NCBI GenBank assembly: GCA_903835235.1
Contig: CAILMF010000079.1
Location: 1 to 64,000 of the forward strand
Origin: an uncultured Rhodospirillales bacterium
GTDB lineage: Bacteria > Pseudomonadota > Alphaproteobacteria > Acetobacterales > Acetobacteraceae
Direction of reading: 5' to 3'
Length of the DNA stretch: 64,000 nt
The notes under the pieces are model-generated. The model ran no database searches, was not told the DNA's origin, and worked only from the letters and a program-made list of their open reading frames with translations. Positions 1 through 55,409 of the stretch are shown piece after piece; within the stretch, counting starts at the first letter, position 1, and every line of letters begins with the position of its first letter. A program made the position numbers and the translations under genes.

Positions 1-136
1 ACTCCGAAAGGCTGCAGCCAGGACCAGCGACGCGGTCTGCGCGACTATCGGCACACTCCTCGGCACCTACACACCAGCAGAGTGCACCAATTACCTAACC
101 CATTCAGGATATAGCCGAACCTAAACGCATCATGCT
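1..136. other. Window edge, no gene seen
   Basis: I see no supported gene, strong hairpin or repeat in these bases. The stretch is less GC-rich than the genes around it. It lies downstream of the leftward racemase-family gene, so it may hold that gene's terminator, but no stem with a T-tract is visible. Confidence 0.5.
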
Positions 137-859
137 CTAGCCCAACGCCCAGCGCCGCGGCCGCAGCCCCGCCTGGAACCAGCAGATCATGCTGTAGATG
201 TCGTAGACCGGCAGCCCGATCTCAGCCGCCAGGTCGGCGGCGTAGGGCGGCATGTTGGTGCATTCCAGCACCACTGCGCCCACCTCCGGATGCGCCGCCA
301 CCAGCGCCCGCCCGGCGTCCAGAATGTCGGCGCGGGCCAGGTCGACATCCATGTCGTCGCGCTCGGCCTTGATCAGCACGCGGAAGAACTCGCGCCCGCC
401 TTCGGTGCCGGTGACCGGCGTGTCCAGCGGCACGCCGGCGGCAGCCAGGTGGCGCGGGGTCAGCCCCGCCTTGTTCACCGTCACCACACCCACCCGCTTG
501 CCCGCCGGCAGCGTCGCCTGCACCCAGGGCACCTGCATCAGGCTGGAGGTCGCGACAGGCACGCCCACCGCCGCCGCCAGCTCCGCCTGGAACAGGCTGA
601 GGAAGCCGCAATTGGTCGTGATGGCCTCGGCGCCCAGCCGCACCAGCTCCTGTGCCGCGGCGACGAAGTCCGGCAGCAGCCCGGCGGCGCCGCCCACCAC
701 CACGCGCTCCGGGCTGGCGCCGGGCACCACCTTGAACAGCACCGGGAAGGGCCAGGTGGTGCCATTGCCCATGTCGCCGGGAATGCGCGGGAAGCGCGCC
801 TCCAGCATCAGGATGCCCAGGGGGGCGCCGTAGATGGCCTTGCCGCCTCGCGCGATCAC
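137..859 (-). CDS. Aspartate/glutamate racemase family protein
   Basis: A 240-residue cytosolic protein. The two catalytic cysteines expected in the Asp/Glu/hydantoin racemase superfamily are visible in TTNCGFL (first half) and LECTNMPPYA (near residue 200), which fits a cofactor-independent two-base racemase or a related arylmalonate-decarboxylase-type enzyme; the substrate cannot be read from sequence. The start is GTG at 859, preceded by GGAGG (866-870) with a six-base spacer. That site lies in a 26-bp tandem duplication, and the gene is chained to the upstream membrane-protein gene through two nine-codon minicistrons, so it is probably translationally coupled. No ATG alternative keeps the conserved N-terminal GGKAIYGAPLG stretch. 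Confidence 0.82.
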   Translation of the reverse strand: MIARGGKAIYGAPLGILMLEARFPRIPGDMGNGTTWPFPVLFKVVPGASPERVVVGGAAGLLPDFVAAAQELVRLGAEAITTNCGFLSLFQAELAAAVGVPVATSSLMQVPWVQATLPAGKRVGVVTVNKAGLTPRHLAAAGVPLDTPVTGTEGGREFFRVLIKAERDDMDVDLARADILDAGRALVAAHPEVGAVVLECTNMPPYAADLAAEIGLPVYDIYSMICWFQAGLRPRRWALG

Positions 860-4647: not shown

Positions 4648-4671
4648 ACCCTTGATCGTCGCCCTACCGTT

Positions 4672-4725: not shown

Positions 4726-5013
4726 ATGATCTTCGAGTGGGATCCGGCCAAGGAAGCCACCAACCGGCTGAAGCATGGGTTGGACTTCTCCTTCGCCGCC
4801 CTGGTCTTCGGGGACCCGCTGGTGACCCTGGTGTTCGACCGGCATGTCGGCGCCGAGGAACGCTGGCATGCCATCGGCGTGGTCGGCGGCGTGACGTTGG
4901 TGCTGGTGGTGCACAGCTATCCGGACCCCGACGACGACCAGCGCGTGCGGGTCATCGGTCTGCGAAAGGCGACGACGCATGAAAGACGACGCTATGAAGG
5001 CTTCGGCCCCTGA
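4726..5013 (+). CDS. brnT: BrnT family ribonuclease toxin
   Basis: A 95-residue type II toxin. The N-terminus MIFEWDPAKEATNRLKHGL is the characteristic BrnT start, followed by FSFAALVFGDP, the HVGAEERWHAIGVV strand region and the C-terminal VRVIGLRKATTHERRRYE. BrnT folds like RelE-type RNases and cleaves mRNA when freed from BrnA. The family's active-site basic and acidic residues (the RW pair and the terminal R/E-rich helix) appear intact. The gene overlaps brnA by 35 bases, the usual toxin-first order. A TTG 42 bases upstream is open, but it lies within the likely operator. Confidence 0.92.
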   Translation: MIFEWDPAKEATNRLKHGLDFSFAALVFGDPLVTLVFDRHVGAEERWHAIGVVGGVTLVLVVHSYPDPDDDQRVRVIGLRKATTHERRRYEGFGP

Positions 5014-5260
5014 CCCCGCGCTGAGCCCGGACCAACAGGCGCAACTCAAGGCGCTGGAGGCCCGCGCCGTCGACACCGACGACATTCCCGAGGCGCCGGC
5101 CGAGCATTGGCAGCGCGCCTTCCGTCCGCGGAAGGAGGCGATCTCCCTGCGCCTGGACATGGACGTGCTCGCCTGGCTGCGCCAGCGCGGCCCGCACTAC
5201 CAGACCGAAATCAACCGCATCCTGCGCGACCGCATGCAGGCCGAGGGTGGCGGCCGGTAG
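4979..5260 (+). CDS. brnA: BrnA family antitoxin
   Basis: A 93-residue antitoxin. The N-terminal half is acidic and proline-rich and should wrap the toxin. The C-terminal half, KEAISLRLDMDVLAWLRQRG followed by HYQTEINRILRDRMQ, is a ribbon-helix-helix DNA-binding domain as in BrnA. It should neutralise BrnT and repress the operon through the palindrome upstream of brnT. Its TAG stop (5258-5260) is also the first three bases of the palindromic repeat element that fills the gap to the next gene, so the present C-terminus GGGR may have been set by that insertion. Confidence 0.92.
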   Translation: MKDDAMKASAPDPALSPDQQAQLKALEARAVDTDDIPEAPAEHWQRAFRPRKEAISLRLDMDVLAWLRQRGPHYQTEINRILRDRMQAEGGGR

Positions 5261-5362
5261 AGCATTTTCAAGGCGAGCGGATACGCTCGCCGACTCGGAA
5301 AATGCGACCCTCCCAAATGGTGGAGCCGTTTCATCGCGCAGGGTCGCGGTGAAACGGCTCTA
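5258..5362. repeat. Two-hairpin palindromic element between converging genes (family A-like)
   Basis: The element starts TAGAGC and ends GCTCTA. Hairpin 1 pairs GCATTTTC (5262-5269) with GAAAATGC (5298-5305), and inside it GGCGAGCG (5272-5279) pairs with CGCTCGCC (5284-5291). Hairpin 2 pairs GAGCCGTTTCA (5323-5333) with TGAAACGGCTC (5350-5360). It fills the whole gap between brnA and the leftward hydratase gene, and its two TAG ends serve as both genes' stop codons. Architecture matches the A element at 30.4 kb, but the arm sequences differ. A MITE-like origin with TA ends is inferred. Confidence 0.75.
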
Positions 5363-6130
5363 AAGCCCGCGCGGCCGCCAGATGGCGTTGTGCCGCACCC
5401 GCGCCAGCATCCGGCCATCCTCGCCCAGCACCACCACGTCCAACTCGGCCAGCCTGTGCCCCTTGTGGTCGCCCTCGGCCAGCACCAGGCCGCGCGCCGT
5501 CACCACCTCCCCCAGGCGTCCCGCGCTGAAGTTTCGCACGGCGCTGCCGACATGGATCCACACGCCCATGACCACATTCTCGGTCAGCACGCGGTTGCAC
5601 AGCCGCAGGATCTGGCCGGGGTGGGCCAGCCCTTCGGCGAGGTAGAGCGCCTCGGTCTCGCGCACGCTGTCCAGGTAGTCCGAGGCCAGCATCTGCGGCG
5701 CGGCGCAGAGCACGGTGCCCGGCGCCAGCAGCGCCTCGGTGGCGGCGGGGCGTTCGGGCGGCGGGTCGCGCCAGGCCCAGGCGGCGGCATCCGGTGCGGC
5801 CTTGGGCGGGGGCAGGGCGGCGCTGCCGCGGGCGCACTCCACGCCGGCGCTCTCCACCAGCAGTGCCAGGCCCTCTCCGGCCGGGGTGGCGCTGACCTGC
5901 ACCATCGCCTCATCATAGACCGGCTTGAAGAAGCGCGCCTCGGCGCTGCCGTGCTCCAGCCAGGCCCGGCCCCAGCGCGCCACGGCGGGATGGATGGCGT
6001 AGGCATAAACCTCCACCCCCGGCACCAGCGCCCCGGTGAAGCCGAATTTCTGCGCCACGTCGTCGGCGTGGATGCGGTTCTCCGACGCCTTGGAGAGGTT
6101 GTGCGCCCGAACCTCGTAGGCGGCGCTCAT
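5360..6130 (-). CDS. MaoC-like double-hotdog hydratase
   Basis: A 256-residue cytosolic protein. The N-terminal hotdog half contains SENRIHADDVAQKFGFTG followed by ALVPGVEVYAYA, which resembles the hydratase-2 motif (Asn, His-x-Asp, Gly-Phe) of MaoC dehydratases. A second hotdog-like half follows after a proline-rich linker. The likely role is hydration or dehydration of an acyl-CoA or related thioester, but the substrate is unknown. Its ATG overlaps the TGA of the upstream flavin monooxygenase gene by four bases, so the two enzymes probably act in one pathway. The TAG stop is supplied by the repeat element at 5258-5362. Confidence 0.7.
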   Translation of the reverse strand: MSAAYEVRAHNLSKASENRIHADDVAQKFGFTGALVPGVEVYAYAIHPAVARWGRAWLEHGSAEARFFKPVYDEAMVQVSATPAGEGLALLVESAGVECARGSAALPPPKAAPDAAAWAWRDPPPERPAATEALLAPGTVLCAAPQMLASDYLDSVRETEALYLAEGLAHPGQILRLCNRVLTENVVMGVWIHVGSAVRNFSAGRLGEVVTARGLVLAEGDHKGHRLAELDVVVLGEDGRMLARVRHNAIWRPRGL

Positions 6131-30374: not shown

Positions 30375-30488
30375 TAGAGCAATATCCGTTCTGATGAAAT
30401 CATCAGAACGGATTTCTTGCTCTGCAACCTAATAAAGCTACAGCACTATCCGCTCACGCTGATTCAGTGTGAGCGGATAGTGCTGTAG
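30375..30488. repeat. Family A repeat, full two-hairpin copy
   Basis: Starts TAGAGCAATATCC and ends GGATAGTGCTGTAG. Hairpin 1: GAGCAATATCCGTTCTGATG, loop AAAT, CATCAGAACGGATTTCTTGC followed by TC. The spacer is TGCAACCTAATAAAG. Hairpin 2 is a 47-bp palindrome (30440-30486) with one G-T mismatch. Hairpin 2 differs by one base from the palindrome at 55363-55409, and both hairpins plus the spacer match, in inverse orientation, the copy at 52177-52273. Confidence 0.92.
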
Positions 30489-35100: not shown

Positions 35101-35140
35101 TAGCGTCTGATCGTCGCCGGTGGAATCACTGGCGGCGCGA
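35101..35140. repeat. Family B repeat, half copy
   Basis: TAGCGTCTGATCGTCGCCGG followed by TGGAATCACTGGCGGCGCGA matches the start of the element at 51432 with only two or three differences by eye. It lies between the EAL gene and the DUF1194 gene. The TCTGTCAGGCGC hairpin is absent. Confidence 0.75.
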
Positions 35141-39494: not shown

Positions 39495-39619
39495 ACAGCC
39501 AACCCTCCGGCCACGGGGCGCGGGCGCCCCGGTCGATTCCCTTGGCCCCAGGTCTAGCAGAGGCCGGGTTAATGATCACCAGGGCTTGATCGGCTTACCC
39601 ACAGCTATCAGGAGGCCAG
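39495..39619. other. Leader region of the second OmpA gene
   Basis: This GC-rich stretch lies between the 57-bp array and the OmpA start. GGAGGGT is close before the ATG (at 39497-39512 on the minus strand). I see no clear -10/-35 pair. The array and this segment together form a 394-bp gap without a supported gene. Confidence 0.4.
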
Positions 39620-39883
39620 CGCCCGGTCCGCGCAGGCGCGCAGCGGCCGGAGCGGTGAACCGGCCGCTGATACACGCGCCCGGTCCGCGCAGGCGCGCAG
39701 CGGCCGGAGCGGTGAACCGGTCGCTGATACACGGGCCCGGTCCGCGCAGGCGCGCAGCGGCCGGAGCGGTGAACCGGTCGCTGATACACGCGCCCGGTCC
39801 GCGCAGGCGCGCAGCGGCCGGAGCGGTGAACCGGTCGCTGATACACGCGCCCGGTCCGCGCAGGCGCGCAGCGGCCGGAGCGG
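39620..39883. repeat. 57-bp tandem repeat, 4.6 copies
   Basis: Units start CGCCCGGTCCGCGCAGGCGC at 39620, 39677, 39734, 39791 and 39848 (the last is 36 bases). The units differ by single bases only. Each holds AGCGGCCGG and CCGGTCGCT, which form a stem (the first unit has CCGGCCGCT, a perfect match). The array ends five bases before the stop codon of the leftward dehydrogenase gene and precedes the second ompA-type gene. Because 57 is a multiple of three, frames stay open through it on both strands, giving false coding signals. Confidence 0.95.
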
Positions 39884-39888
39884 CCGCC

Positions 39889-42801
39889 CTATGCCAGCGC
39901 CTGGTCCAGCAGCCGCACGCTGTGCAGCGCCGCCCGCCCGGCCAACCCTTCGATCTGATGCCGGCACGACGTGCCATCGGCCAGCACGTAGTCCCCGGCC
40001 ACGGCCGCGCGCACCGCCGGCAACAGGTTGAGTTCCGCCATGGCGCGGGATGTCGCCTGGTTCGCCGCCTCATAGCCGAAGGACCCGGCCATGCCGCAGC
40101 AGGAGGAGGTGATCGGCTTCACCGTAAGCCCCGGCACCCGCTGCAACAGCGCCAGCGTGGGCGCGAAGGCGGCGAAGGCCTTCTGGTGGCAATGCCCATG
40201 CACGTGCACGGTGGCCTCCACCCGGCCCAGCTTCAGCGTCGCCTTCTCGCGCGCCAGAAACTCCGCCAGCAGGAAGCTGCGCGCCGCCAGCGCCTCGGCC
40301 GCCGGGCCAGGCAGCAGCGCCAGGAACTCATCGCGCAGCGTCAGCAGGCAGGAGGGTTCGATGCCCACCACCGGCGTGTTGGGGAAAGCATCCAGCGCCG
40401 CCAGGGTCCGCGCCGCCTCTTCCCGCGCCTTGGCCACCAGCCCGGCGGCCAGCAGTGTGCGCCCTTCATCCAGCGGCCGGGCGCCGCGGGCCGGCCGCGC
40501 CACCACGGGGGTATAGCCGGCGGCGCGCAGCACCCGGGCGGCGGCGCGCAGGTTCTCGGGTTCGTAGTAGCGGTTGAACAGGTCCGGCAGCAGGATCACC
40601 TCGCCCGCCGCGCCCGAAGGCCAGGGCAACTCGGCGTCGTGGAAGGCGTCTCGCCGGAAGCGCGGCAGGGCGCGCGTGGCGCTGATGCCGAGCAGGGCCT
40701 GCGCCACCCAGCGCGCCCCGGGCACCCATTCCCGCGCATTGCTCAGCGGCGCCAGCATGGCGGCAAACGGCGCCCAATGCGGCATGCCCGCCAGCACCCG
40801 GTCCTTCAGCGAAAGCCCATGCGACGCCACCCGTGCCGCCAGGTGCTCGATCTTCAGCTTGGCCATGTCCACGCCGGTCGGGCATTCCCGCCGGCAGCCC
40901 TTGCAGGAAACGCACAGTGCCATTGCCGCCGCCACGTCGTCGCCGCCCAGCCCGCCGGGAATCTGCCCGGTCAGTGCCAGCCGCAGCGTATTAGCCCGGC
41001 CGCGCGTCAAATGCTGTTCGTCGCGCGTGGCGCGGAAGCTCGGGCACATCACCGCCGCGTCGAATTTCCGGCAGGTGCCGTTGTTGTTGCACATCTCCAC
41101 GGCGCTCAGCAGGCCCTGCTGCGGCCCGGGATAGGCGCTCCAATCCAGCGCCGGCGTCACGTTGATCGGCGCGTAGTCCGGCGCGTAGCGGAACAGGCTG
41201 CGGTCATCCATCCGCGGTGGCCGCACCACGCGGTTGGGGTTCAGCATCCCCGCGGGATCAAACGCGTCCTTCACCTGCTCGAAGGCGCGGGCGATGCGGC
41301 TGCCGAACATCGTCTCGTTGAACTCGGACCGCACGATGCCGTCGCCATGCTCGCCGGAATGGCTGCCCTTGTACTCCCGCACGAGAGCAAAACATTCCTC
41401 CGCGATGGTCCGCATCAGCTTTACGTCGCTGCCATCCTTCATGTTCAGCACCGGCCGCACATGCAGGCAGCCGACGCTGGCATGGGCGTACCAGGTGCCC
41501 TTGGTGCCGTGCTTCGCAAACACGTCGTTCAGTCGCTCGGTGTAATCGGCCAGGTCGTCCAGCGCGACGGCGCAATCCTCAATGAAGGAGACCGGCTTCC
41601 CGTCCCCCTTCATGGACATCATGATGTTCAGCCCGGCCTCGCGCACCTCCGCAATGGCGGCCATGAAGGCCGGGTCCACCACCCGCACCACCTGCTTCGG
41701 GTGGCCCAGGTCGGCCATCATCACCTCCAGCGCATCCAACTGGCGCAGCAGGGTGGCATCGTCCTCGCCGTGGAACTCCACGATCAGCAGGCTGTCCGGC
41801 TCACCGATCAGGATGCTGTCGATGGTGCTGCGGAACATGGCGATGGACCGGCCCAGGTCGATCATCGTCCGGTCCACCAGCTCCACCGCTTCCGGCATCA
41901 GCGTCACCAGGTGCTGGCTGGCTTCCATCGCCTTGCGGAAGGTCGGGAACTGGCAGATGCCCATCACCTTGCGCGGCTTCACCCGGTGCAGTTGCAGGGT
42001 CAGCGCGGCGGAATAGGCCAGCGTCCCCTCGCTGCCCACCAGCAGGCGGGCCAGGTTGCTGCGGCCATTCTGCCGCGCGGCCGGCGTCAGCGCATCGATG
42101 TTGTAGCCGCCCACGCGGCGCAGCTGCTTCGGGAAGCGCGCCTCGATCTCGGCGGCCTCGCGCGCGCCCAGCGCCCGCAACCGCTGGATCAGGTCGGCGG
42201 TCGCCGCCGGCACCTCGGCGCCCAGATTGTCCGGCAACTCGCCAAACCGGAACTGCGAGCCATCCGCCAGCAGCGCGTCGATGGACAGCACGTTGTCGGC
42301 CATGAGCCCGTAGCGGATCGACTTGCCGCCGCACGAGTTATTGCCGGCCATGCCGCCGATGGTGCAGCGCGCATGCGTGGAAGGATCGACCGCGAAGAAC
42401 AGCTTGTGCCGCGCGATCTCCCCATTCAGCGCGCCCAGCGCGATGCCGGGCTCAACCGTCGCGGTCTGCGCTGCCGCATCCACGCTCAACACGCGGCGCA
42501 GATATTTGGAAGTATCGATCACCAGCGCGCGGTTCACCGTCTGCCCGCACTGGCTGGTGCCGCCGCCGCGCGGCAGCACCGGGATGCCTTCCTCCCGGCA
42601 GATCGCCATCGCCGCCTGCACATCGCCGATGCTGCGTGGGATCAGCACGCCCACCGGCTCCATCTGGTAGATGCTGGCGTCGGTCGCGTAGCGCCCGCGG
42701 TCGGCGGCGCCGAACAGCACCTCGCCCTCGGTTTCGCGCTGCAAACGCCCGGCCAGCTTGCTGTCGCCGATGCGGTCCTTGGGAATGGTGAAGGCGTCCA
42801 T
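39889..42801 (-). CDS. FAD-linked oxidase / Fe-S dehydrogenase (YdiJ-like, D-2-hydroxyacid)
   Basis: A 970-residue fusion. Residues about 1-500 form a GlcD-type FAD domain (VLPRGGGTSQCGQTVNRALV, then CTIGGMAGNNSCGGKSIRYG). A 4Fe-4S motif CVSCKGCRRECPTGVDMAKL follows near residue 635, and the C-terminal CCG-type domain has HGHCHQKAFAAF and SSCCGMAGSFGYE. This is the layout of E. coli YdiJ, which oxidises D-2-hydroxyglutarate or a similar D-2-hydroxyacid and passes electrons to a carrier. Only one Fe-S motif is seen. It is divergent from the M24 peptidase gene. The 57-bp tandem array follows its stop. Confidence 0.9.
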   Translation of the reverse strand: MDAFTIPKDRIGDSKLAGRLQRETEGEVLFGAADRGRYATDASIYQMEPVGVLIPRSIGDVQAAMAICREEGIPVLPRGGGTSQCGQTVNRALVIDTSKYLRRVLSVDAAAQTATVEPGIALGALNGEIARHKLFFAVDPSTHARCTIGGMAGNNSCGGKSIRYGLMADNVLSIDALLADGSQFRFGELPDNLGAEVPAATADLIQRLRALGAREAAEIEARFPKQLRRVGGYNIDALTPAARQNGRSNLARLLVGSEGTLAYSAALTLQLHRVKPRKVMGICQFPTFRKAMEASQHLVTLMPEAVELVDRTMIDLGRSIAMFRSTIDSILIGEPDSLLIVEFHGEDDATLLRQLDALEVMMADLGHPKQVVRVVDPAFMAAIAEVREAGLNIMMSMKGDGKPVSFIEDCAVALDDLADYTERLNDVFAKHGTKGTWYAHASVGCLHVRPVLNMKDGSDVKLMRTIAEECFALVREYKGSHSGEHGDGIVRSEFNETMFGSRIARAFEQVKDAFDPAGMLNPNRVVRPPRMDDRSLFRYAPDYAPINVTPALDWSAYPGPQQGLLSAVEMCNNNGTCRKFDAAVMCPSFRATRDEQHLTRGRANTLRLALTGQIPGGLGGDDVAAAMALCVSCKGCRRECPTGVDMAKLKIEHLAARVASHGLSLKDRVLAGMPHWAPFAAMLAPLSNAREWVPGARWVAQALLGISATRALPRFRRDAFHDAELPWPSGAAGEVILLPDLFNRYYEPENLRAAARVLRAAGYTPVVARPARGARPLDEGRTLLAAGLVAKAREEAARTLAALDAFPNTPVVGIEPSCLLTLRDEFLALLPGPAAEALAARSFLLAEFLAREKATLKLGRVEATVHVHGHCHQKAFAAFAPTLALLQRVPGLTVKPITSSCCGMAGSFGYEAANQATSRAMAELNLLPAVRAAVAGDYVLADGTSCRHQIEGLAGRAALHSVRLLDQALA

Positions 42802-44102: not shown

Positions 44103-45491
44103 ATGCGCCTGTTCCCCCCCGCCGCCGCCCGCCAGGGCCTCAGCGCCCAGCCGGTCTTCGCCCGCCGCGGGCTGTTCGGCGCCGCCTGCGCCTGTGCGGT
44201 GCTCGGCTTTGGCGCCGGCCGCGCCCTCGCCATTACCCCCGCCGCCGCGAAGCCGCTGCACGCCAAGCTCGACGCCGCCGCCCAGGCGGTTGGCCCAAAG
44301 CTGCTTGCCTGGCGCCGCGACATCCACCAGCACCCCGAGCTCGGCAACCAGGAAACCCGCACCGCCGGCCTGGTCGCCGCCCATCTGCGCGCCCTTGGCT
44401 ACGAAGTCCGCGAGCGCGTCGCCGTCACCGGCCTGGTCGCCCGCCTGCAGGGCGGCGCTGGCCCCGGCCCGCATGTGGCGCTGCGGGCCGACATGGACGC
44501 GCTGCCGGTGGCGGAGGAGGTGGACCTGCCCTTCCGCAGCCAGGCCCGTGCACGTTGGGAAGGCGCCGAGGTCCCGGTCATGCATGCCTGCGGGCATGAC
44601 TGCCACACCGCCATCCTGATGGCCGCGGCCGAGGTGCTGGCCGCCAACAAGGCGCAGCTCAAGGGCCAGGTCACGCTGCTGTTCCAGCCCGCCGAGGAAG
44701 GCGCCCCCACCGGAGAAACCGGCGGCGCCAGGCGCATGCTGGCCGAGGGCGCCTTCAGCCACGGCAAGCCGGATGCCGTCTTCGGCCTGCACGTGGTCAG
44801 CGGCTTGCCGGCGGGCATGCTCGGCTTCTGCCCCGGCCCGGCGCATGCCTCGTCGGACACCTTCCGCATCGTGGTGCATGGCCGCCAGACCCATGGCGCC
44901 CGCCCCTGGGCCGGGGTGGACCCCATCGTCATCGGCGCCCAGGTCGTCTCCGCGCTTCAGACCATCCAGTCCCGCCAGGTGGATGTGGACCAGCCCTCGG
45001 TGCTCACCGTCGGCACCTTCCATTCCGGCGCCCGCCACAACATCGTGCCCGAACAGGCCGTGATGACCGGCACGCTGCGCACCTATGACGAAGCCCGGCG
45101 CGACTACATGCAGCGCCGGGTGAAGGAAGTGGCCGAGGGCGTCGCCAGCGGCATGGATGGCCGGGCCGAGGTAACCTGGGCACCCAACGGCTACCCCACC
45201 ACGGTCAACGACCGTGTCCTCGGCGACCGCATGCTGCCCAGCCTGGCCCGCGTGGTCGGCGAGGCCAACCTGCGCATGGCGCCGCGCAGCACCGCCAGCG
45301 AGGACTTCTCCTACTTCGCGCAGCAGGCGCCGGGGATGTTCTTCTGGGTCGGCGTCGGCCCGCGCGACCAGAACCTGCGCGACAACCCGACCAACCATTC
45401 TCCCCGCTTCCGGGTGGAGGAGGACGGCCTGCTGCCCGGCCTGCGCGGGTTGCTGCACCTGGTGGCGGACTATACCGGCAGCGCGGTGTAG
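44103..45491 (+). CDS. M20 family amidohydrolase, exported
   Basis: A 462-residue metal-dependent amidohydrolase (AbgB/IAA-amino-acid hydrolase type). Metal site motifs are RRDIHQHPELGNQET, ADMDALPV, MHACGHDCHTAIL and LLFQPAEEGAP; the C-terminal SEDFSYF supplies another ligand. The first 45 residues (ARRGLFGAACACAVLGFGAG region) look like a Tat-type signal, so it likely acts in the periplasm. It would release amino acids from N-acyl or aryl conjugates. The neighbouring M24 gene is co-transcribed, and the convergent ABC importer may take up the products. Confidence 0.9.
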   Translation: MRLFPPAAARQGLSAQPVFARRGLFGAACACAVLGFGAGRALAITPAAAKPLHAKLDAAAQAVGPKLLAWRRDIHQHPELGNQETRTAGLVAAHLRALGYEVRERVAVTGLVARLQGGAGPGPHVALRADMDALPVAEEVDLPFRSQARARWEGAEVPVMHACGHDCHTAILMAAAEVLAANKAQLKGQVTLLFQPAEEGAPTGETGGARRMLAEGAFSHGKPDAVFGLHVVSGLPAGMLGFCPGPAHASSDTFRIVVHGRQTHGARPWAGVDPIVIGAQVVSALQTIQSRQVDVDQPSVLTVGTFHSGARHNIVPEQAVMTGTLRTYDEARRDYMQRRVKEVAEGVASGMDGRAEVTWAPNGYPTTVNDRVLGDRMLPSLARVVGEANLRMAPRSTASEDFSYFAQQAPGMFFWVGVGPRDQNLRDNPTNHSPRFRVEEDGLLPGLRGLLHLVADYTGSAV

Positions 45492-45498
45492 CGCTGCG

Positions 45499-45548
45499 CG
45501 GCTGAAGCACGCCGCCGGCCGCTGCGCGCCTCCGGCGATCAGACGCTA
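45499..45548 (-). repeat. Family B repeat, half copy at a stop codon
   Basis: GGCTGAAGCACGCCGCCGGC ... TCCGGCGATCAGACGCTA matches the GATC-ended half of family B. On the minus strand its TAG end (45548-45546) is the stop codon of the ABC permease gene. It fills the gap between the M20 gene and that permease. Confidence 0.65.
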
Positions 45549-46373
45549 CCGACGATACTTCCGCCCGACCACGGCGCTGCCCAGCACGGTCAGCGCCAGG
45601 GTCACCACCAGCAGCAGGAAGGCCAGCGCGGCGCCGAACGGCCAGTTGGTGCCGCGCACGAACTGGTCGTACACCGCCGGCGCCATCATCTTGAACTGCG
45701 GCCCGCCCAGCAGCACCGGCGTGGCATAGGCGTTCATGCACAGGATGAACACCAGCACGCTGCCGGCCACCACGCCCGGCACCGCCAGCGGCAGCACCAC
45801 GCGGCGAAACGCCGTGAGCGGCCCGGCGCCCAGGTTGGCGGCGGCCTCCTCCAGGTTGCGCGGTATCCCCTCGATCACCGCCGACAGCGTCAGGATCATG
45901 TAGGGCGCCACCACCGCGACAATGCCGACGATGACGGCGCCTTGCGTATACAGCAACTGCAATGGCTCGCTGATGATGCCCAGACCGCGCAGCGCCGCGT
46001 TGATCGCGCCATCCCGCCCCAGCAACGCCATCCACCCGGCCGAGCGCACCACATTGCCCACCAGCAGCGGAAACACGGTCAGGATCACCGCCAGCGACTT
46101 CTGCTTGCTGTCCATCCGCGCCAGCCACCAGGCCGCCGGAAAACCGATGACCAGGCAGATGGCGGTGCAGGAAAGCGCCACCGTCATCGTGGTGCCCATG
46201 ACGCCCTGGTAGTAGGGGTCTGCCAGGGCGCGCAGGTAGTTGCCGGGTTGCAGCGCCTCCAGCATCAGCTGGGTCGGGCTGTATTCGTTCAGGCTGATCC
46301 GGAACAGCATGGCCATCGGCGCCACCAGCAGCAGCAGCACCAGCAACCCGGCGGGCAGGACAAGGGCAGCCAT
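45546..46373 (-). CDS. ABC transporter permease (PotB-like)
   Basis: A 275-residue membrane subunit with six helices. The EAA loop is EEAAANLGAGPLTAFRRVVL (followed by PLAVPGV), as in PotB-type permeases of spermidine/putrescine-like importers. It starts MAALVLPAGLLVLLLLVAPM at 46373; no earlier in-frame start is convincing, and the RBS is poor. It is the last gene of the operon, 25 bases after the third binding-protein gene. It pairs with the PotC-like permease at the other end of the same operon. Its stop TAG lies in a family B repeat. Confidence 0.85.
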   Translation of the reverse strand: MAALVLPAGLLVLLLLVAPMAMLFRISLNEYSPTQLMLEALQPGNYLRALADPYYQGVMGTTMTVALSCTAICLVIGFPAAWWLARMDSKQKSLAVILTVFPLLVGNVVRSAGWMALLGRDGAINAALRGLGIISEPLQLLYTQGAVIVGIVAVVAPYMILTLSAVIEGIPRNLEEAAANLGAGPLTAFRRVVLPLAVPGVVAGSVLVFILCMNAYATPVLLGGPQFKMMAPAVYDQFVRGTNWPFGAALAFLLLVVTLALTVLGSAVVGRKYRR

Positions 46374-46398
46374 CAGCGGGTACCGTGACCGCGTCGCA

Positions 46399-47409
46399 TC
46401 AGCCCTTGAACTCCTTGTTCCAGAAGTCCAGCAGCCGCCCGGCCATGCTGGCCTGATAGGCATAATCCGGCGTGCGCAGCTTTGCCTGCTGCGCTTCGGT
46501 CAGGCTGATCTGGCGGGCGAGCTCTGCCGGCAGCGGCGCGTCGGTCACGGTCGGCACATAGCCCATGCGCGCGGCGAAGGCCGCCTGTCCCCGCACATCC
46601 AGCATGGCGTCCACATAGCGCCAGCCGCCTTCCTTGTTGCGGGCGTTCTTCGGCACCGCCATTTCATAGGTGATGCTGGTGGCGCCTTCGTCGGGCACCA
46701 CATGTTCCAGCGGAATGCCGGCCTGCTTCCACATGAAGCCACGCGCCAGCCACATCACCGTCACGGCCACTTCCTCGCTCTTCAGCGCGGCGGCCAGTTG
46801 CTCGTTGGAGGAATAGACCCGCGCCCCCAGCGCCTTCCATTCCCGCAGCTTCTGCCACGCCGGCTCGAAGTTGCTGGGACCACCGCCGCCGACAATCGCC
46901 GCCGTCTCGACATATTGCGCATACAGCAGGTCCGAGAGCCCGACCTTGCCGCGATACTTCGCGTCCCACAGGTCGGCGTAGCTCCGCGGCGGCACCGGCA
47001 CCAGGTTGGGGTTGTACAGGATGACCCGCGCCGAATAGATGTGCGGCACCGCATAGGCACGCTTCAGCGAGGGGATCACCCGCCCCAGCCCCGGCACCGC
47101 GCCCTCCGGCACCGGCTCGAACAGCCCCAACTGCGCCAACTCGTACATGTCCACGTCGGAGAGGCCCACCACGTCCATGCTGCCGCGCCGCGCCTGGCGT
47201 TCCGCCAGCAGCTTGGTCTTGCGGGTCGGCGCCGGCGCAATCTCCTGCACCACCTCCAACCCGCGCGGCGTGGCCACGGCTTGATCCACGCCCTGGCGCA
47301 GGATCTCGCCATAGTCGCCGCCCCAGGTGCCCATCACCACGCGCGCGTCCTGCGCGCGCGCGGCAACCGGCAGCAGCGCGGCGGCACCAAGGGCGCGGCG
47401 GCTGATCAA
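46399..47409 (-). CDS. Extracellular solute-binding protein (PotD-like), copy 3 of 3
   Basis: A 336-residue periplasmic binding protein. The start is TTG at 47409, which overlaps the TGA of the preceding paralogue (TTGA). The signal is ISRRALGAAALLPVAARAQ, then VVMGTWGGDYGEILRQGVD, the family's first strand. PHIYSARVILYNPNLVP and GFMWKQAGIPLEHVVPDEG are shared with its two neighbours, and it ends LLDFWNKEFKG. It is similar over its whole length to copy 2 and less so to copy 1. It should deliver a cationic or amino-acid-like ligand to the PotBC permeases of the operon. Confidence 0.88.
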   Translation of the reverse strand: MISRRALGAAALLPVAARAQDARVVMGTWGGDYGEILRQGVDQAVATPRGLEVVQEIAPAPTRKTKLLAERQARRGSMDVVGLSDVDMYELAQLGLFEPVPEGAVPGLGRVIPSLKRAYAVPHIYSARVILYNPNLVPVPPRSYADLWDAKYRGKVGLSDLLYAQYVETAAIVGGGGPSNFEPAWQKLREWKALGARVYSSNEQLAAALKSEEVAVTVMWLARGFMWKQAGIPLEHVVPDEGATSITYEMAVPKNARNKEGGWRYVDAMLDVRGQAAFAARMGYVPTVTDAPLPAELARQISLTEAQQAKLRTPDYAYQASMAGRLLDFWNKEFKG

Positions 47410-48428
47410 CCCTTGAACTCCTTGTTCCAGAAGTCGAGGTATTCCGCCGTATGCGCCGCGGTGTACGCATAGTCCGGCGTCCGCAGTTTTGCTTGTTGCG
47501 CCGGGTTCAGGGTGATCTGCGCCGCCAGTTCCGGCGGCAGCGTCGCGTTGGTGACGGTCGGCGCATAGCCCATGCGGTCGGCGAAGCCGGCCTGCGCCCG
47601 CGGGTCCAGCGCCGCGTTCAGGTACTTCATCGCGCCTTCCTTGTTGCGCGAGTTCTTCGGCACCGACATCTCGAAGGTGATGCTCGTCGCCCCTTCCTCC
47701 GGCACCGCGTGCTGCACCGGAATGCCCGCCTTCTTCCACATGAAGCCGCGCGCCATCCACATGATGGTCAGCCAGACCTCCTCGCTCTTCAGCGCGGCGG
47801 CCAGTGCCTCGTTGGACGGATACAGCTTCACGTCGTTGCGGCGCAGCTCCATCAGCTTGCCCTTAGCCGGCGCCCAATTGGTCTCGCTGCCGCCACCGAC
47901 CAGCGCCGCCGCCTCGGTATTCGCCAGGTAGAGGATATCGACCAGGCCGACGCGGCCGCGATACTTCGGGTCCCACAGATCGGCATAGCCCTTGGGCGCC
48001 ACCGGCACCTTGGACGGATTATAAAGTATAACCTTGGCCGAATAGATGTGCGGTGCGCTGTAGGGCCGCTTCAGCGTGGGGATCGCATGCGCCAGGTTCG
48101 GCACCTGCGCCTGGGTGATCGGCTCGAACACGTCCTGCTGCGCCATGCTGTACATGTCCACGTCGGACAGGCAGCAGATATCCATGGTGCCGCGCCGGCT
48201 CTGCCGTTCCGCGATCAGCTTGGTCTTGCGCGGGTCCTGCGGCCCGACATCCTGCTGCACCTCCACGCCCGCCGGGCGCAGGATCGGCACATCGATATTG
48301 CTGGCCAGCAGCTCGCCATAATCGCCGCCCCAGGTGCCCACGATGACCGGCGCGGCCTGCGCGCTGGCGCGACCGATGAGCGGCGCGGCCAGGGCTGCGC
48401 CCAGCGCGGTACGACGGGTGATGTTCAT
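47406..48428 (-). CDS. Extracellular solute-binding protein (PotD-like), copy 2 of 3
   Basis: A 340-residue protein starting MNITRRTALGAALAAPLIGR with a strong RBS, AAGGAG, seven bases upstream. It contains VIVGTWGGDYGELLASNID, PHIYSAKVILYNPSKVPVAP and GFMWKKAGIPVQHAVPEEG, and ends YLDFWNKEFKG. It is closest to copy 3. The only gap between paralogues (29 bases) is the one upstream of this gene. It has no obvious defect, so all three receptors appear usable; different ligand residues suggest different substrates. Confidence 0.88.
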   Translation of the reverse strand: MNITRRTALGAALAAPLIGRASAQAAPVIVGTWGGDYGELLASNIDVPILRPAGVEVQQDVGPQDPRKTKLIAERQSRRGTMDICCLSDVDMYSMAQQDVFEPITQAQVPNLAHAIPTLKRPYSAPHIYSAKVILYNPSKVPVAPKGYADLWDPKYRGRVGLVDILYLANTEAAALVGGGSETNWAPAKGKLMELRRNDVKLYPSNEALAAALKSEEVWLTIMWMARGFMWKKAGIPVQHAVPEEGATSITFEMSVPKNSRNKEGAMKYLNAALDPRAQAGFADRMGYAPTVTNATLPPELAAQITLNPAQQAKLRTPDYAYTAAHTAEYLDFWNKEFKG

Positions 48429-48457
48429 GCCAGTCTCCTTCTTGCTGCCCTTGGGGG

Positions 48458-49471
48458 TCATGCCTTGAACTCGCGTTCCCAGAACGCCAGGATTTCCGCC
48501 GCATTGCGCGCGGTATAGCCAAAATCCGGCCGCCGCAGCTTCGCCAACTGCTCCGCTGGCACGCCAATCTCGGCCAGCAGTGGCGCCGGCAGCGTCGCCA
48601 GCGTCGTCGTCGGCAGGTAGCCCATGCGTTCGCCGAAGCCGAGCGCGGCGCGCGGGTCCAGCATGGCGTTCAGATAAGCATAGGCGGCCTGCTTGTTGCG
48701 CGCATTCTTCGGCACCACGGCGGCCGAGACATAGGGCGTCGCCCCCTCGGCCGGGAAGGTCGGCTGCACGGCAATGCCGGCGCGTCGCCAGGCATAGCCG
48801 CGCGCCAGCCACATGATGGTCGCCGCGACCTCGCCGGATTTCAGCGCGGCGGCCAGGTTCTCGTTGGCGCTGTACACCCGGACGCCCAGCGCCTTCAGCG
48901 CCCGCAGCCGCGCCTGGCCCGGCGCGAAGTCGCTCTCGTTGCCGCCGCCGGCCAGCGCCGCGGCCTCGCTGATGCTCTGGTACAGCAGGTCGGAAAAGCC
49001 GATGCGGTTGCGGAAGCGCTCATCCCACATATCGGCGTAGCTGACCGGCGCCGGCGAGATCACCGCCGGGTTGGTCAACATGACCCGCACCGAATAGATA
49101 TGCGGCAGCACAAAGGGTGAGCGCAGCGCCGGCAGCACATGCGCGATGTTCGGCACCTTGTCCGGCGTCAACTCCTCCACCAGCCCGAGTTCGGCCATGG
49201 CGTAGCAATCCGCGTCGCCCAGGCAGACCACGTCCTGGCTGCCACGCCGGGCGCTGCGCTCGGCGATCAGCTTGGTCTTGCGCGCGGCAGGGGTGCCGAG
49301 GTCCTGCACCGGGGTCAGGCCGAGCGGCCGGACCAGTGGCGCATCCACCTCGCTGGCCAGCAGCGCGCCGTAGTCGCCGCCCCAGGTGCCGATGATCACC
49401 TCATTCGCCTGGGCATGGGCGATGGCCGGCGCCGCCAGCGCCGCACCCAGCAACCCCCGTCGAGCAATCAT
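48458..49471 (-). CDS. Extracellular solute-binding protein (PotD-like), copy 1 of 3
   Basis: A 337-residue protein starting MIARRGLLGAALAAPAIAHA. It has VIIGTWGGDYGALLASEVD, PHIYSVRVMLTNPAVISPAP and GYAWRRAGIAVQPTFPAEG, ending LAFWEREFKA. It is more diverged than copies 2 and 3. Its ATG overlaps the TGA of the ATPase gene. The family binds polyamines, opines, iron complexes or similar ligands; no ligand can be read here. It is the first of three consecutive receptor genes in an otherwise ordinary importer operon. Confidence 0.88.
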   Translation of the reverse strand: MIARRGLLGAALAAPAIAHAQANEVIIGTWGGDYGALLASEVDAPLVRPLGLTPVQDLGTPAARKTKLIAERSARRGSQDVVCLGDADCYAMAELGLVEELTPDKVPNIAHVLPALRSPFVLPHIYSVRVMLTNPAVISPAPVSYADMWDERFRNRIGFSDLLYQSISEAAALAGGGNESDFAPGQARLRALKALGVRVYSANENLAAALKSGEVAATIMWLARGYAWRRAGIAVQPTFPAEGATPYVSAAVVPKNARNKQAAYAYLNAMLDPRAALGFGERMGYLPTTTLATLPAPLLAEIGVPAEQLAKLRRPDFGYTARNAAEILAFWEREFKA

Positions 49472-51431: not shown

Positions 51432-51535
51432 TAGCGTCTGATCGTCGCAGGTGGAATCACCGGCGGCGTGAATCAGTCGCTCGAAAAAGCGCCAGGGCCT
51501 GTCAGGCGCTTCTGCCTGCGCCTGACAGACCCTGG
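51432..51535 (-). repeat. Family B repeat, full copy (inverse)
   Basis: On the plus strand TAGCGTCTGATCGTCGCAGG ... ends with a hairpin CCAGGGCCTGTCAGGCGC (51492-51509), loop TTCTGCCT, GCGCCTGACAGACCCTGG (51518-51535). Reversed, it aligns over its whole length with the copy at 55260-55361. It lies between the divergent PotC-like and DUF938 genes, so it would sit in the leader region of one or both. Confidence 0.9.
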
Positions 51536-52151: not shown

Positions 52152-52176
52152 ACGCGGCTACGGCACCAGCCATTCC

Positions 52177-52273
52177 CACTGAAGCAGTGTGAACGGATTT
52201 CGTGCTGTAGCTTCAATAGGTTGCAGAGCACGAAATCCGTTCTGCTGATGCCATCAGACCGGATAATGCCCTA
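52177..52273 (-). repeat. Family A repeat, inverse copy lacking one arm
   Basis: On the minus strand: TAGGGCATTATCCGGTCTGA then TGGCATCAGCAGAACGGATT and TCGTGCTCTGCAACCTATTG, then AAGCTACAGCACGAAATCCG and TTCACACTGCTTCAGTG. It aligns with 30375-30465 up to the centre of hairpin 2 and then stops, so the last arm is lost. Its TAG end (52273-52271) is the stop codon of the HWE kinase gene. Confidence 0.88.
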
Positions 52274-55045
52274 TTCCGCCGCCGCTTGCGTCGGGGCCGG
52301 CAGGGCGGCGGCGAAGCCCGGCGCGTGCGGCACGCTGAACTCCACCAGCAGCCCGCCCGTTGTCCATTGCCGCGCCAGCGTGCCGCCCAGCTGGCCCTGG
52401 ATGGTCTGCTCGATCACGCGGGAGCCGAAGCCGCGCCGCGTCGGCTCGGCCGCCGGCGGCCCGCCACTCTCGCGCCAGCTCAGCCACAGCCGCCGCTCCG
52501 CCAGCCGCCAGGTCACCGCAACCAACCCGCCCGGCTGCGACAGCGCGCCATACTTCACCGCATTGGTCGCCAGTTCGTGCAGCGCCATGCACAGCGCCTG
52601 GGTCGAACCCGCCTCCAGCATCACCGGCGGCCCCACCAGCTCGGCGCGGGACCCCGTCGCCCCCGGCGCGGTCGCCAGGAAGGGCGTCAGCTCGCCCTCC
52701 AGCAGCGCGCGCAGCTCGGCGCCCTGCCAGCGGCGCTGCGCCAGCACGGTATGGGCGCGGGCCAGCGCGGCAACGCGGCCCTCCACCGCGCGGATATAGT
52801 CCGGCTGGTTGTTCGCCTTGGTCAGCCGCAGCGCCGCCTGCACCACCGCCAGCGCGTTCTTGGCGCGGTGATCCACCTCGCGCATCAGCAGCGCGCTGTG
52901 CGCCTCCGCCCGCTTGCGTTCGGTGATGTCGTAATGCACCCCCAGCAGCCGGCGCCCCTGCCCGCCAGGGGCGGGGAAGCAGCGCCCCAGCCCGGCCAGC
53001 CACACCTCCCGCGCGCCGCCATCGGCCTGCGGGTGCAGCACGCGGAACTCGCTGCGGAACTCGGCGCCGGCCATGCCCGCCGCCAGCTCGGCGGCCACGC
53101 GGCGGCGGTCCTGCGGATGCACCCGGGCCAGCGCCTCCGGCCCGGTCGGCTGCGGGCCGTGCGGCGGAAAGCCCCACAGCGCGAAGCTCTGCGCCGACCA
53201 GCGCATCTCCACCCCCGGCGCCAGCACCTCCCAGGTGCCTATCCCCGCCGCCTCCTGCGCCAGGCGCAGCCGGTTCTCGCTCTCGGCCAGGGCTTCCTCG
53301 GCCAGCTTGCGGTCGGTGATGTCGTCCACCGCGAAGATGAAATGCAGCGGCCGCCCGCCATGGTCATGCAGCACCGAGGCCGTCAGGTTCACCCAGGTCG
53401 TCGCGGCATCGCGCCGCTGGTAGCGGCACTCCAGGAAGATCACCACTTCCTCGCCGGCCAGCAGCCGTTGCACCCGCGCCACGCTCTCGGCCAGGTCCTC
53501 GGCATGGGTGGTGTCCTGGAAGCGGCTGGCCAGCAGCTCGGCCCGGGTATAGCCCAGCATGGCGCAGAGCTGGTCATTCACCCGCAGCCAGCGGCCGTCC
53601 AGCGCCACATGCGCCATGCCGATCGCCGCCTGCTCGAAGGTGGCGCGGAAGCGCTCCTCGCTCTGCGCCAGCGCCGTCTGCAACCGGCGCTGCGGGGTGA
53701 TGTCGGTCTGGTTCACCACCAGGCGCATGCCGTCCGCGGCCTCCCGCGCGATCCATTGGGAGAGCACGACCATCGCCGTGCCGTCCTTGTGGCGCTGGGG
53801 CAATTCGCCGCGCCATTCGCCGTACCGCTCCACCGCGGCCAGGATCGCCTCGCGCTGGCCCGGCATGTAGTCGGTCAGCATGCGCCGCTGGTGGCCCTCG
53901 ATCTCGGCCGCGGTGTAGCCGTACATCCGCTCGCAGCCCAGCGACCAGTGCTGGATGGTGCCGTCCGGCAGCATGATCAGCGTGGCCGAAAGGTCCAGCG
54001 CGTCGGACAGCTCGCGCAGGTCCGTGGTGCGCGCCTCCACCCGCCGCTCCAGCGACGTATTGGTCCGCACCAGCCGCCAATGGTCACGCCGCACCTTCAG
54101 GCTCAGCAGCAGCAGCGCCAGCGTGGCCGGCAGCCCGAACATCGCATGCGTGGTGACGTTGTCCTGCCACTCCGTCACGATCGCCGAGCGTGGCCGGCCC
54201 ACATTGGCGTAGAGCGCGAATCCGTCCAGCTGGCGGGAGGCAACCAGCACGGTTTCCCCGGTGATGCCTGAGTTCATCATATAGACCGCATCCCGCCGCC
54301 CCGCGGCCGCGAAGGCGCTGAACTCGGTGCTGGCGCGCAGTACCGGCTGCGGGCCGTTCTCCCGGTGGGTGCGGACCAGCATCTGGCCATCGGCGCGCAG
54401 CAGGGCGGCGGTGTCCGCCCGGCCGCCCAATAGGCTGCGCATGGTCTCGGCCAGCTGCGCCGGCCGCACCGAGACATTGACCAGCCCCTCGAAGCCGCTG
54501 GCGCCGGGCAGGTTGCCGGTGCCTTCCCGCCGCCGGCTGACGGCGAAGAACGGCAGGTTGTCCAGCCGGCCGATATAGGTCCGGCTGATATGCACCGCTG
54601 GTGTGCCCGGTTGCGACAGGGCGAGGAAGAAGTCCCGGTCCGCCGCCACCTGCATGCCCCGCGGCATCGGGAAGACGTTGCTGCTGACCAGGCCTTCGCC
54701 GCCGGCGCTGACGACATAGGCGGCATCGGCCTGCGGCAATTCGGTCAACAGCTGCTTCAGCGCCGCGTGCAGCCGCGCTTCCTCCCGCAGGATCTGCTCG
54801 TCGCTCATGCCCCGCAGCAGGTCGTTCATGCGCCCGGTCAGCAGCACATGGGCGTTCAGCACGCGCGTCGCGTATTCGGCCGCCGCGTCGGCGCTGCGCA
54901 CCAGCTCCGCCTGGCTGTCGCGCCAGACCGAGCGCCAGCTGACCAGCGCGCCGACCGCCATGATCAGCAGCGGCAGCAGCACCGCGGCCCAGGGCAGCAG
55001 GCGCACCAGGACCGGCAATCTAGGCGAGGCGTAAGGCTGTGACAT
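52271..55045 (-). CDS. Membrane HWE-family sensor histidine kinase with PAS domains
   Basis: A 924-residue kinase. It has an N-terminal membrane helix (PWAAVLLPLLIMAVGALVSW), a large periplasmic dCache-like region (about 50-290), a second helix (MFGLPATLALLLLSL), then three PAS units (starting near ELSDALDLSATLIMLPDG, EERFRATFEQAAIGMAHVAL and AESENRLRLAQEAAGIGTWE). The catalytic part has the H-box LLMREVDHRAKNALAV, N-box HELATNAVKYGALS and the W-x-E of LSWRESGGP that names the HWE class. It has no receiver domain and no adjacent response regulator. A TTG one codon before ATG 55045 is open but unlikely. The stop comes from a family A repeat. Confidence 0.9.
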   Translation of the reverse strand: MSQPYASPRLPVLVRLLPWAAVLLPLLIMAVGALVSWRSVWRDSQAELVRSADAAAEYATRVLNAHVLLTGRMNDLLRGMSDEQILREEARLHAALKQLLTELPQADAAYVVSAGGEGLVSSNVFPMPRGMQVAADRDFFLALSQPGTPAVHISRTYIGRLDNLPFFAVSRRREGTGNLPGASGFEGLVNVSVRPAQLAETMRSLLGGRADTAALLRADGQMLVRTHRENGPQPVLRASTEFSAFAAAGRRDAVYMMNSGITGETVLVASRQLDGFALYANVGRPRSAIVTEWQDNVTTHAMFGLPATLALLLLSLKVRRDHWRLVRTNTSLERRVEARTTDLRELSDALDLSATLIMLPDGTIQHWSLGCERMYGYTAAEIEGHQRRMLTDYMPGQREAILAAVERYGEWRGELPQRHKDGTAMVVLSQWIAREAADGMRLVVNQTDITPQRRLQTALAQSEERFRATFEQAAIGMAHVALDGRWLRVNDQLCAMLGYTRAELLASRFQDTTHAEDLAESVARVQRLLAGEEVVIFLECRYQRRDAATTWVNLTASVLHDHGGRPLHFIFAVDDITDRKLAEEALAESENRLRLAQEAAGIGTWEVLAPGVEMRWSAQSFALWGFPPHGPQPTGPEALARVHPQDRRRVAAELAAGMAGAEFRSEFRVLHPQADGGAREVWLAGLGRCFPAPGGQGRRLLGVHYDITERKRAEAHSALLMREVDHRAKNALAVVQAALRLTKANNQPDYIRAVEGRVAALARAHTVLAQRRWQGAELRALLEGELTPFLATAPGATGSRAELVGPPVMLEAGSTQALCMALHELATNAVKYGALSQPGGLVAVTWRLAERRLWLSWRESGGPPAAEPTRRGFGSRVIEQTIQGQLGGTLARQWTTGGLLVEFSVPHAPGFAAALPAPTQAAAE

Positions 55046-55259
55046 CAACGCCTGGCTGAAAGGGGAAGTGGTATCCGCACCAAAGCATTTCGGCCCACCC
55101 GCCGCACGGCCGAACCGACCCTTCGGCGCCAGGCTCAGCCGAACGTGATCCGGCGTCGCGCCAGGCGAGGGGTCCGTTGCGCAGGTGCCTGCCAGGGCAT
55201 GTTATTCGCCTGCCGAAGCGGCAGCCGATTCCGCGTGGCTGGCCCCTGCCGCAGCCAGC
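55046..55259. other. Upstream region of the HWE kinase gene
   Basis: This part of the 404-bp gap has no supported gene. It should hold the kinase promoter, but no convincing -35/-10 pair or operator is visible. The rest of the gap is made of repeats. Confidence 0.4.
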
Positions 55260-55361
55260 TAGAGTCTGTCAGGCGCAGACAGAAGCGCCTGACAGACTCT
55301 AAGCTGTTGTTTGAGCGGCTGATTCGCGCCGCCGGTGATTCCGCCGGCGACGATCAGACGC
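55260..55361 (+). repeat. Family B repeat, full copy
   Basis: Hairpin 1: TAGAGTCTGTCAGGCGC (55260-55276), loop AGACAGAA, GCGCCTGACAGACTCTA (55285-55301), 17 perfect pairs. A spacer AGCTGTTGTTTGAGCGG follows, then hairpin 2: CTGATTCGCGCCGCCGG, loop TGATT, CCGCCGGCGACGATCAG, and a GACGC end. Reversed, it matches 51432-51535 throughout. Confidence 0.92.
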
Positions 55362-55362
55362 C

Positions 55363-55409
55363 ACAGCACTATCCGCTCACGCTGATTCAGCGTGAGCGGA
55401 TAGTGCTGT
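55363..55409. repeat. Family A palindrome fused to a B element
   Basis: ACAGCACTATCCGCTCACGC then TGATTCAGCGTGAGCGGATA and GTGCTGT is a perfect 47-bp palindrome (23-base arms around one T). It is identical at 46 of 47 positions to 30440-30486. Here it directly abuts the family B copy, with only one base between. Confidence 0.93.

Follow-up and report, generated by a model that had tools for sequence, protein, structure and literature searches.

The window, the first 64 kb of a 109.9-kb contig, belongs to a draft genome of 5.97 Mb with about 70% G+C and an Acetobacteraceae-type character, whose named relatives detected in our searches are Acetobacteraceae or Rhodospirillales MAGs. Within it, the gene for a 93-aa BrnA antitoxin (brnA, positions 4979 to 5260, forward strand; PF14384) and a MaoC-like gene encoding 256 aa (5360 to 6130, reverse strand; no Pfam match at an E value of 0.001) face each other across a 105-nt family-A repeat (5258 to 5362, forward strand), which comprises two hairpins and, in that length, the TA at both ends. 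The BrnA stop codon (TAG, 5258 to 5260) and the MaoC-like stop codon (TAG, 5362 to 5360, appearing on the right as CTA) form the opposite ends of this single element. The gene for an HWE histidine kinase (52271 to 55048, reverse strand) terminates in a TAG (52273 to 52271) that is the left end of a degenerate family-B element of about 116 nt (52158 to 52273, reverse strand), 72 nt of which are 88% identical to positions 30375 to 30446. A PotB-like permease gene (45546 to 46463, reverse strand; BPD_transp_1) has its TAG (45548 to 45546) at the end of a 13-nt fragment, TAGCGTCTGATCG (45536 to 45548, reverse strand), that matches the left terminus of family D exactly.

The original prediction named these four sites as places where the outer TAG of a palindromic element serves as the stop codon of the adjacent gene. 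That description is accurate for BrnA, MaoC, and the HWE kinase, but at PotB, where a whole palindromic element was sought, only the terminus was found, and the stretch from 45489 to 45535 is otherwise unrecognized as an element. Matches to this D terminus (with at most one mismatch) number 4 in the window against 0.06 expected, placing them beyond chance. There is also a fifth junction that had been overlooked: the gene at 137 to 859 (reverse strand) stops at a TAG (139 to 137) that coincides with the terminus of an IS630-type insertion sequence (IS; 1 to 139, reverse strand), whose terminal inverted repeat reads TA followed by GAGCATGATGCG.

Three families of two-hairpin repeats, A, B, and D, are recognized, all of them 100 to 116 nt in length and flanked by TA. 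The outer dinucleotide is TA at most element ends, the remainder being mostly CA or TG (single-change derivatives of TA), and elements also occur nested in or abutting one another with TA at the joint. In five of the six end types, the TA is followed by G; the sixth, the right end of family B, has C in this position and cannot make a stop. The hairpins are very stable (z scores of -5 to -15), the terminal bases are paired in family B, and family D, about 104 nt long, carries CGTC close to its end. A genome search returned 9 matches for family A, in which the other copies are 84 to 93% identical to 5258 to 5362, and pattern searches returned at least 115 hits for family B (a figure that includes both ends of short palindromic copies) and 94 for family D. 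Further copies in the window include the family-B reference copy (30375 to 30488, forward strand), which is intergenic and away from any stop codon; an intergenic family-D copy (51432 to 51535, forward strand) with a clean empty site in congener G003; a second family-D copy (55259 to 55363, reverse strand) that abuts half of a family-B element (to 55411); and a family-D left half (35101 to 35140, forward strand), at which the matching TA reads TAC in congeners G003 and G005, with G003 lacking the element. Rfam yielded zero matches across the window, and no description of the three families was found in the open-access literature searched.

Comparison with congeners, which are separate species, so that all empty-site comparisons are made between species, shows that the repeats entered stop codons already present and rebuilt them, leaving protein ends unchanged. 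The HWE kinase has its TAG after the residues AAE in all three congeners without the element, and its flank, once emptied of the repeat, resembles that of congener G004. In congeners, neither PotB nor the gene at 137 to 859 has a shifted end, the stop codon being TGA or TAA in the former and TAA or TAG in the latter, and MaoC ends 0 to 1 residue later. There is no congener copy of BrnA, the C-terminal length of which is similar in homologues from other genera, and the emptied site in brnA reads as an in-frame TAA. Across the genome, the far side can be read for 28 of the ends that form stop codons. Deleting the repeat and one TA brings back TAG or TAA in frame at 26 of these 28 ends (P = 3e-6 in a test against an even split). 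The far TA is followed by G or A in all 26, indicating that TAG or TAA stood in frame there before the insertion.

The two exceptions, which would be tyrosine codons, are a weakly supported open reading frame on contig C55 and MaoC itself. The far side of the MaoC element reads TAC, a nonstop codon, so the junction as it now stands does not represent a straightforward insertion into the stop codon of that gene. The congeners lack brnA; as a guess, the brnTA pair may have been gained later beside MaoC. Four congener copies of MaoC have no recognized repeat at the stop, and two have a D-type element on the same codon. In G003, MaoC and a convergent gene flank this D-type element (L281 5080-5200, G003:C4), which supplies TAG to both, an arrangement that parallels that of BrnA and MaoC here. 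Adjoining brnT, the sequence TGATCGTCGCC (4653 to 4663) is similar to family D, perhaps as the vestige of an older element that lay between MaoC and the gene next to it.

For a genome-wide count of stop-codon junctions, stretches of about 1.4 to 7 kb were fetched around the listed repeat copies, and reading frames were scored with a simple codon model trained on ten window genes, making the gene calls approximate. The counts rest on listed pattern and BLAST hits and cover part of the copies; in the similarity searches for B and D, 40 candidates were scored. By this codon model, 54 repeat ends among the copies listed have a junction triplet that serves as the stop of a strongly coding frame, and 52 of the 54 are TAG. 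Among the matches listed, exact stop junctions occur at 28 of 106 left ends of B, 20 of 84 left ends of D, 3 of 38 right ends of D, and 3 of 15 ends of A, versus none of 44 outer right ends of B.

When the analysis is confined to ends that face a gene stop within 400 nt, again among the matches listed, the distance is zero for 28 of 68 left ends of B (41%) and 20 of 46 left ends of D (43%), with only 1 and 2 ends, respectively, at distances of 1 to 10 nt. This sharp peak at zero is not due to chance. No right end of B is at distance zero (0 of 21 facing ends, compared with the 28 left ends; Fisher P = 1e-4), and a search for genes extended through this end (reading TAC AGC ACT ATC CGC TCA CGC TGA) recovered none in the stop frame and one that enters by another frame. 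In three left-end copies of B (C1:199672, C8:19053, and C26:141041), CT replaces TA and the gene appears to end with a TGA overlapping the GA of the element.

The share of insertions at stop codons can be ascribed to the availability of TAG. In a 167-kb background comprising the window and congener stretches, TAG constitutes 41 of 152 gene stops, and another 47 TAGs occur in noncoding DNA on the strand of the gene within 400 nt downstream. If all available TAGs are used equally, 47% of insertions are expected on the stop; if TAs are used at random, the expectation is 17%. The values of 41% and 43% observed here agree with the TAG model and reject the TA model (P = 3e-6 for left ends of B and 3e-5 for left ends of D), rendering a special attraction to stop codons unnecessary. 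The original expectation of repeated insertion at TA near gene ends is thus borne out by the TA flanks, the clean empty site, and the genome-wide peak at distance zero, and the share of facing left ends of B and D that sit on a stop (41% and 43%) exceeds the 17% expected from random TA.

Nucleotides around insertions away from stop codons suggest that the target is (C)TAG, with TAG a preference at best. Among the matches listed, the base after the far TA is G in 43 of 53 nonstop B copies, against 36% of TAs in the window, and the base before the TA is C in 23 of 40 nonstop left ends of B. The D sites at 51432 and 35101, by contrast with this preference, read TAC in congeners; at 51432 to 51535, the empty sites of G003 and G004 have C after the TA and this genome has G. 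The marked constancy of the far base raised the possibility that B itself encodes a G at its right end. A family-B element nested within a family-A copy (G000:C54:140980-141197) has TA on both sides with G next on the B strand, an arrangement that favors the target as the source of this G, with some doubt left by the empty site at 51432.

These features favor, with a probability of about 0.85, the reading that the repeats are MITEs of the IS630/Tc1-mariner type that insert at TA, preferably within (C)TAG, and rebuild TAG stops. Under such a mechanism, a short nonautonomous element would enter at a TA, doubling the dinucleotide and favoring sites within (C)TAG; with the TA duplicated and G as the first base of the element, TAG would be regained at the same codon, and the insertion would be tolerated, the protein being unchanged. 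In a genome of 70% G+C, noncoding TAGs near gene ends are scarce, such that nearly half of the TAGs facing a gene 3' end are its own stop. The missing stop-changing insertions would reflect either selection against them or an orientation set by the target, and the count of 28 stop-keeping ends against 0 stop-destroying ones may measure the avoidance of even a 7-codon C-terminal extension. If this reading is correct, what looks like repeated gene damage follows one short recipe, in which an element that targets TAG and starts with G leaves the stop intact. For annotation, an element-borne TAG should not be called a truncation.

The assignment draws on TA duplication, evident in the outer TA, the G003 empty site, and the B element nested in A, and on the preference for CTAG at nonstop ends of B, with the two TAC sites of D as departures. 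IS630 of Shigella sonnei prefers the TA in CTAG, as cited in PMC6811581, and ISY100 duplicates TA on insertion (PMC2170065). Like these ISs and the MITEs of their group, the repeats combine TA duplication, CTAG preference, and terminal inverted repeats; unlike them, A, B, and D are mosaics of two hairpins with ends that match only partly. An IS630-type transposase is a candidate for mobilizing the three families. The resident IS is about 1054 nt long, with its transposase split over two frames (L179 1396-2449, at the end of contig C72), and its ends (TA followed by GAGCATGATGCG) agree with those of B (TA followed by GAGCAATATCCG) at only about 8 of 12 bases, TA plus GAGC being common to the IS and, of the families, B only. 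This IS terminates both the present contig and C72, marking an assembly break inside it. The other two DDE_3 loci (L180 and L181) show no convincing inverted ends, and an IS5-type origin was rejected, there being no PF01609 match in the genome. That the leading G, present in five of six end types and in the resident IS, is an adaptation that, in combination with a (C)TAG target, makes stops safe landing sites throughout G+C-rich genomes, with the elements spreading by rebuilding the stop that they hit, is a speculative and rather unlikely extension.

The competing explanations account for parts of this pattern. Under the original prediction, elements inserting ahead of the earlier stops would have cut short native tails off the proteins; element TAGs do serve as stops, and MaoC, which has the TAC far side, is one residue shorter than most of its congeners. 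This possibility is nonetheless very improbable, as the stops of MaoC, the HWE kinase, PotB, and the IS630-flanked gene lie no more than one residue away from those in congeners, the very outcome that was named beforehand as contradicting it, and far sides restore a stop in all but two cases. Retention of the elements at gene ends as transcription terminators or mRNA stabilizers, in the manner of REPs and with the exact junction as a by-product, would explain the stable hairpins and why many copies lie downstream of genes. Under that role, distances would be expected to scatter over short values rather than to spike at zero with almost nothing at 1 to 10 nt, and TAG availability alone predicts the observed share, so we regard it as improbable, although it may still add to retention.

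A third possibility, that the elements are GTAG REPs and owe their movement to a RAYT tyrosine transposase, appeals to the finding of Di Nocera et al. (2013) that GTAG-tagged REP termini often supply a TAG stop to flanking open reading frames (PMC3733652), and the right end of B does read GCTGTAG. The resemblance lies in palindromic repeats near gene 3' ends that provide TAG stops (52 of 54 ends here). But GTAG REPs are hairpins of 20 to 40 nt with an unpaired GTAG head, as opposed to elements of 100 to 116 nt with two hairpins, TA on both sides, and, in B, paired termini; the B end with GTAG is never the one that forms a stop; and the stop here is a demonstrated target site, not a new stop. 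This origin is accordingly most doubtful, and the TA-inserting MITE is preferred. CGTC REPs, short hairpins with a CGTC head that are reported missing from the Acetobacteraceae, also differ from family D, in which the CGTC near the end belongs to a TA-flanked, two-hairpin element of about 104 nt. RIME and Bru-RS are intergenic palindromic elements of about 100 nt in the Rhizobiales, and the present families resemble them in length, intergenic position, and occurrence in alphaproteobacteria. In Coxiella, the MITEs QMITE1 and QMITE2 overlap the 3' ends of genes by between one base and a few tens of bases (PMC5896051) and, like the repeats here, leave protein size little changed; however, a protein can gain C-terminal residues encoded by a QMITE, and direct repeats of 7 to 9 bp are present in QMITE2, whereas here the stop is rebuilt at the junction. 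The supply of TAG stops by REP termini has been known since 2013, and the phenomenon is thus of a known kind, to which families A, B, and D and the quantitative explanation appear to be additions.

Two other repetitive features occur in the window. A repeat scan detected a tandem array with a 57-nt period at 39564 to 39905, and three paralogous genes in tandem, each about 1 kb long (46457 to 49441), adjoin the PotB-like permease gene.
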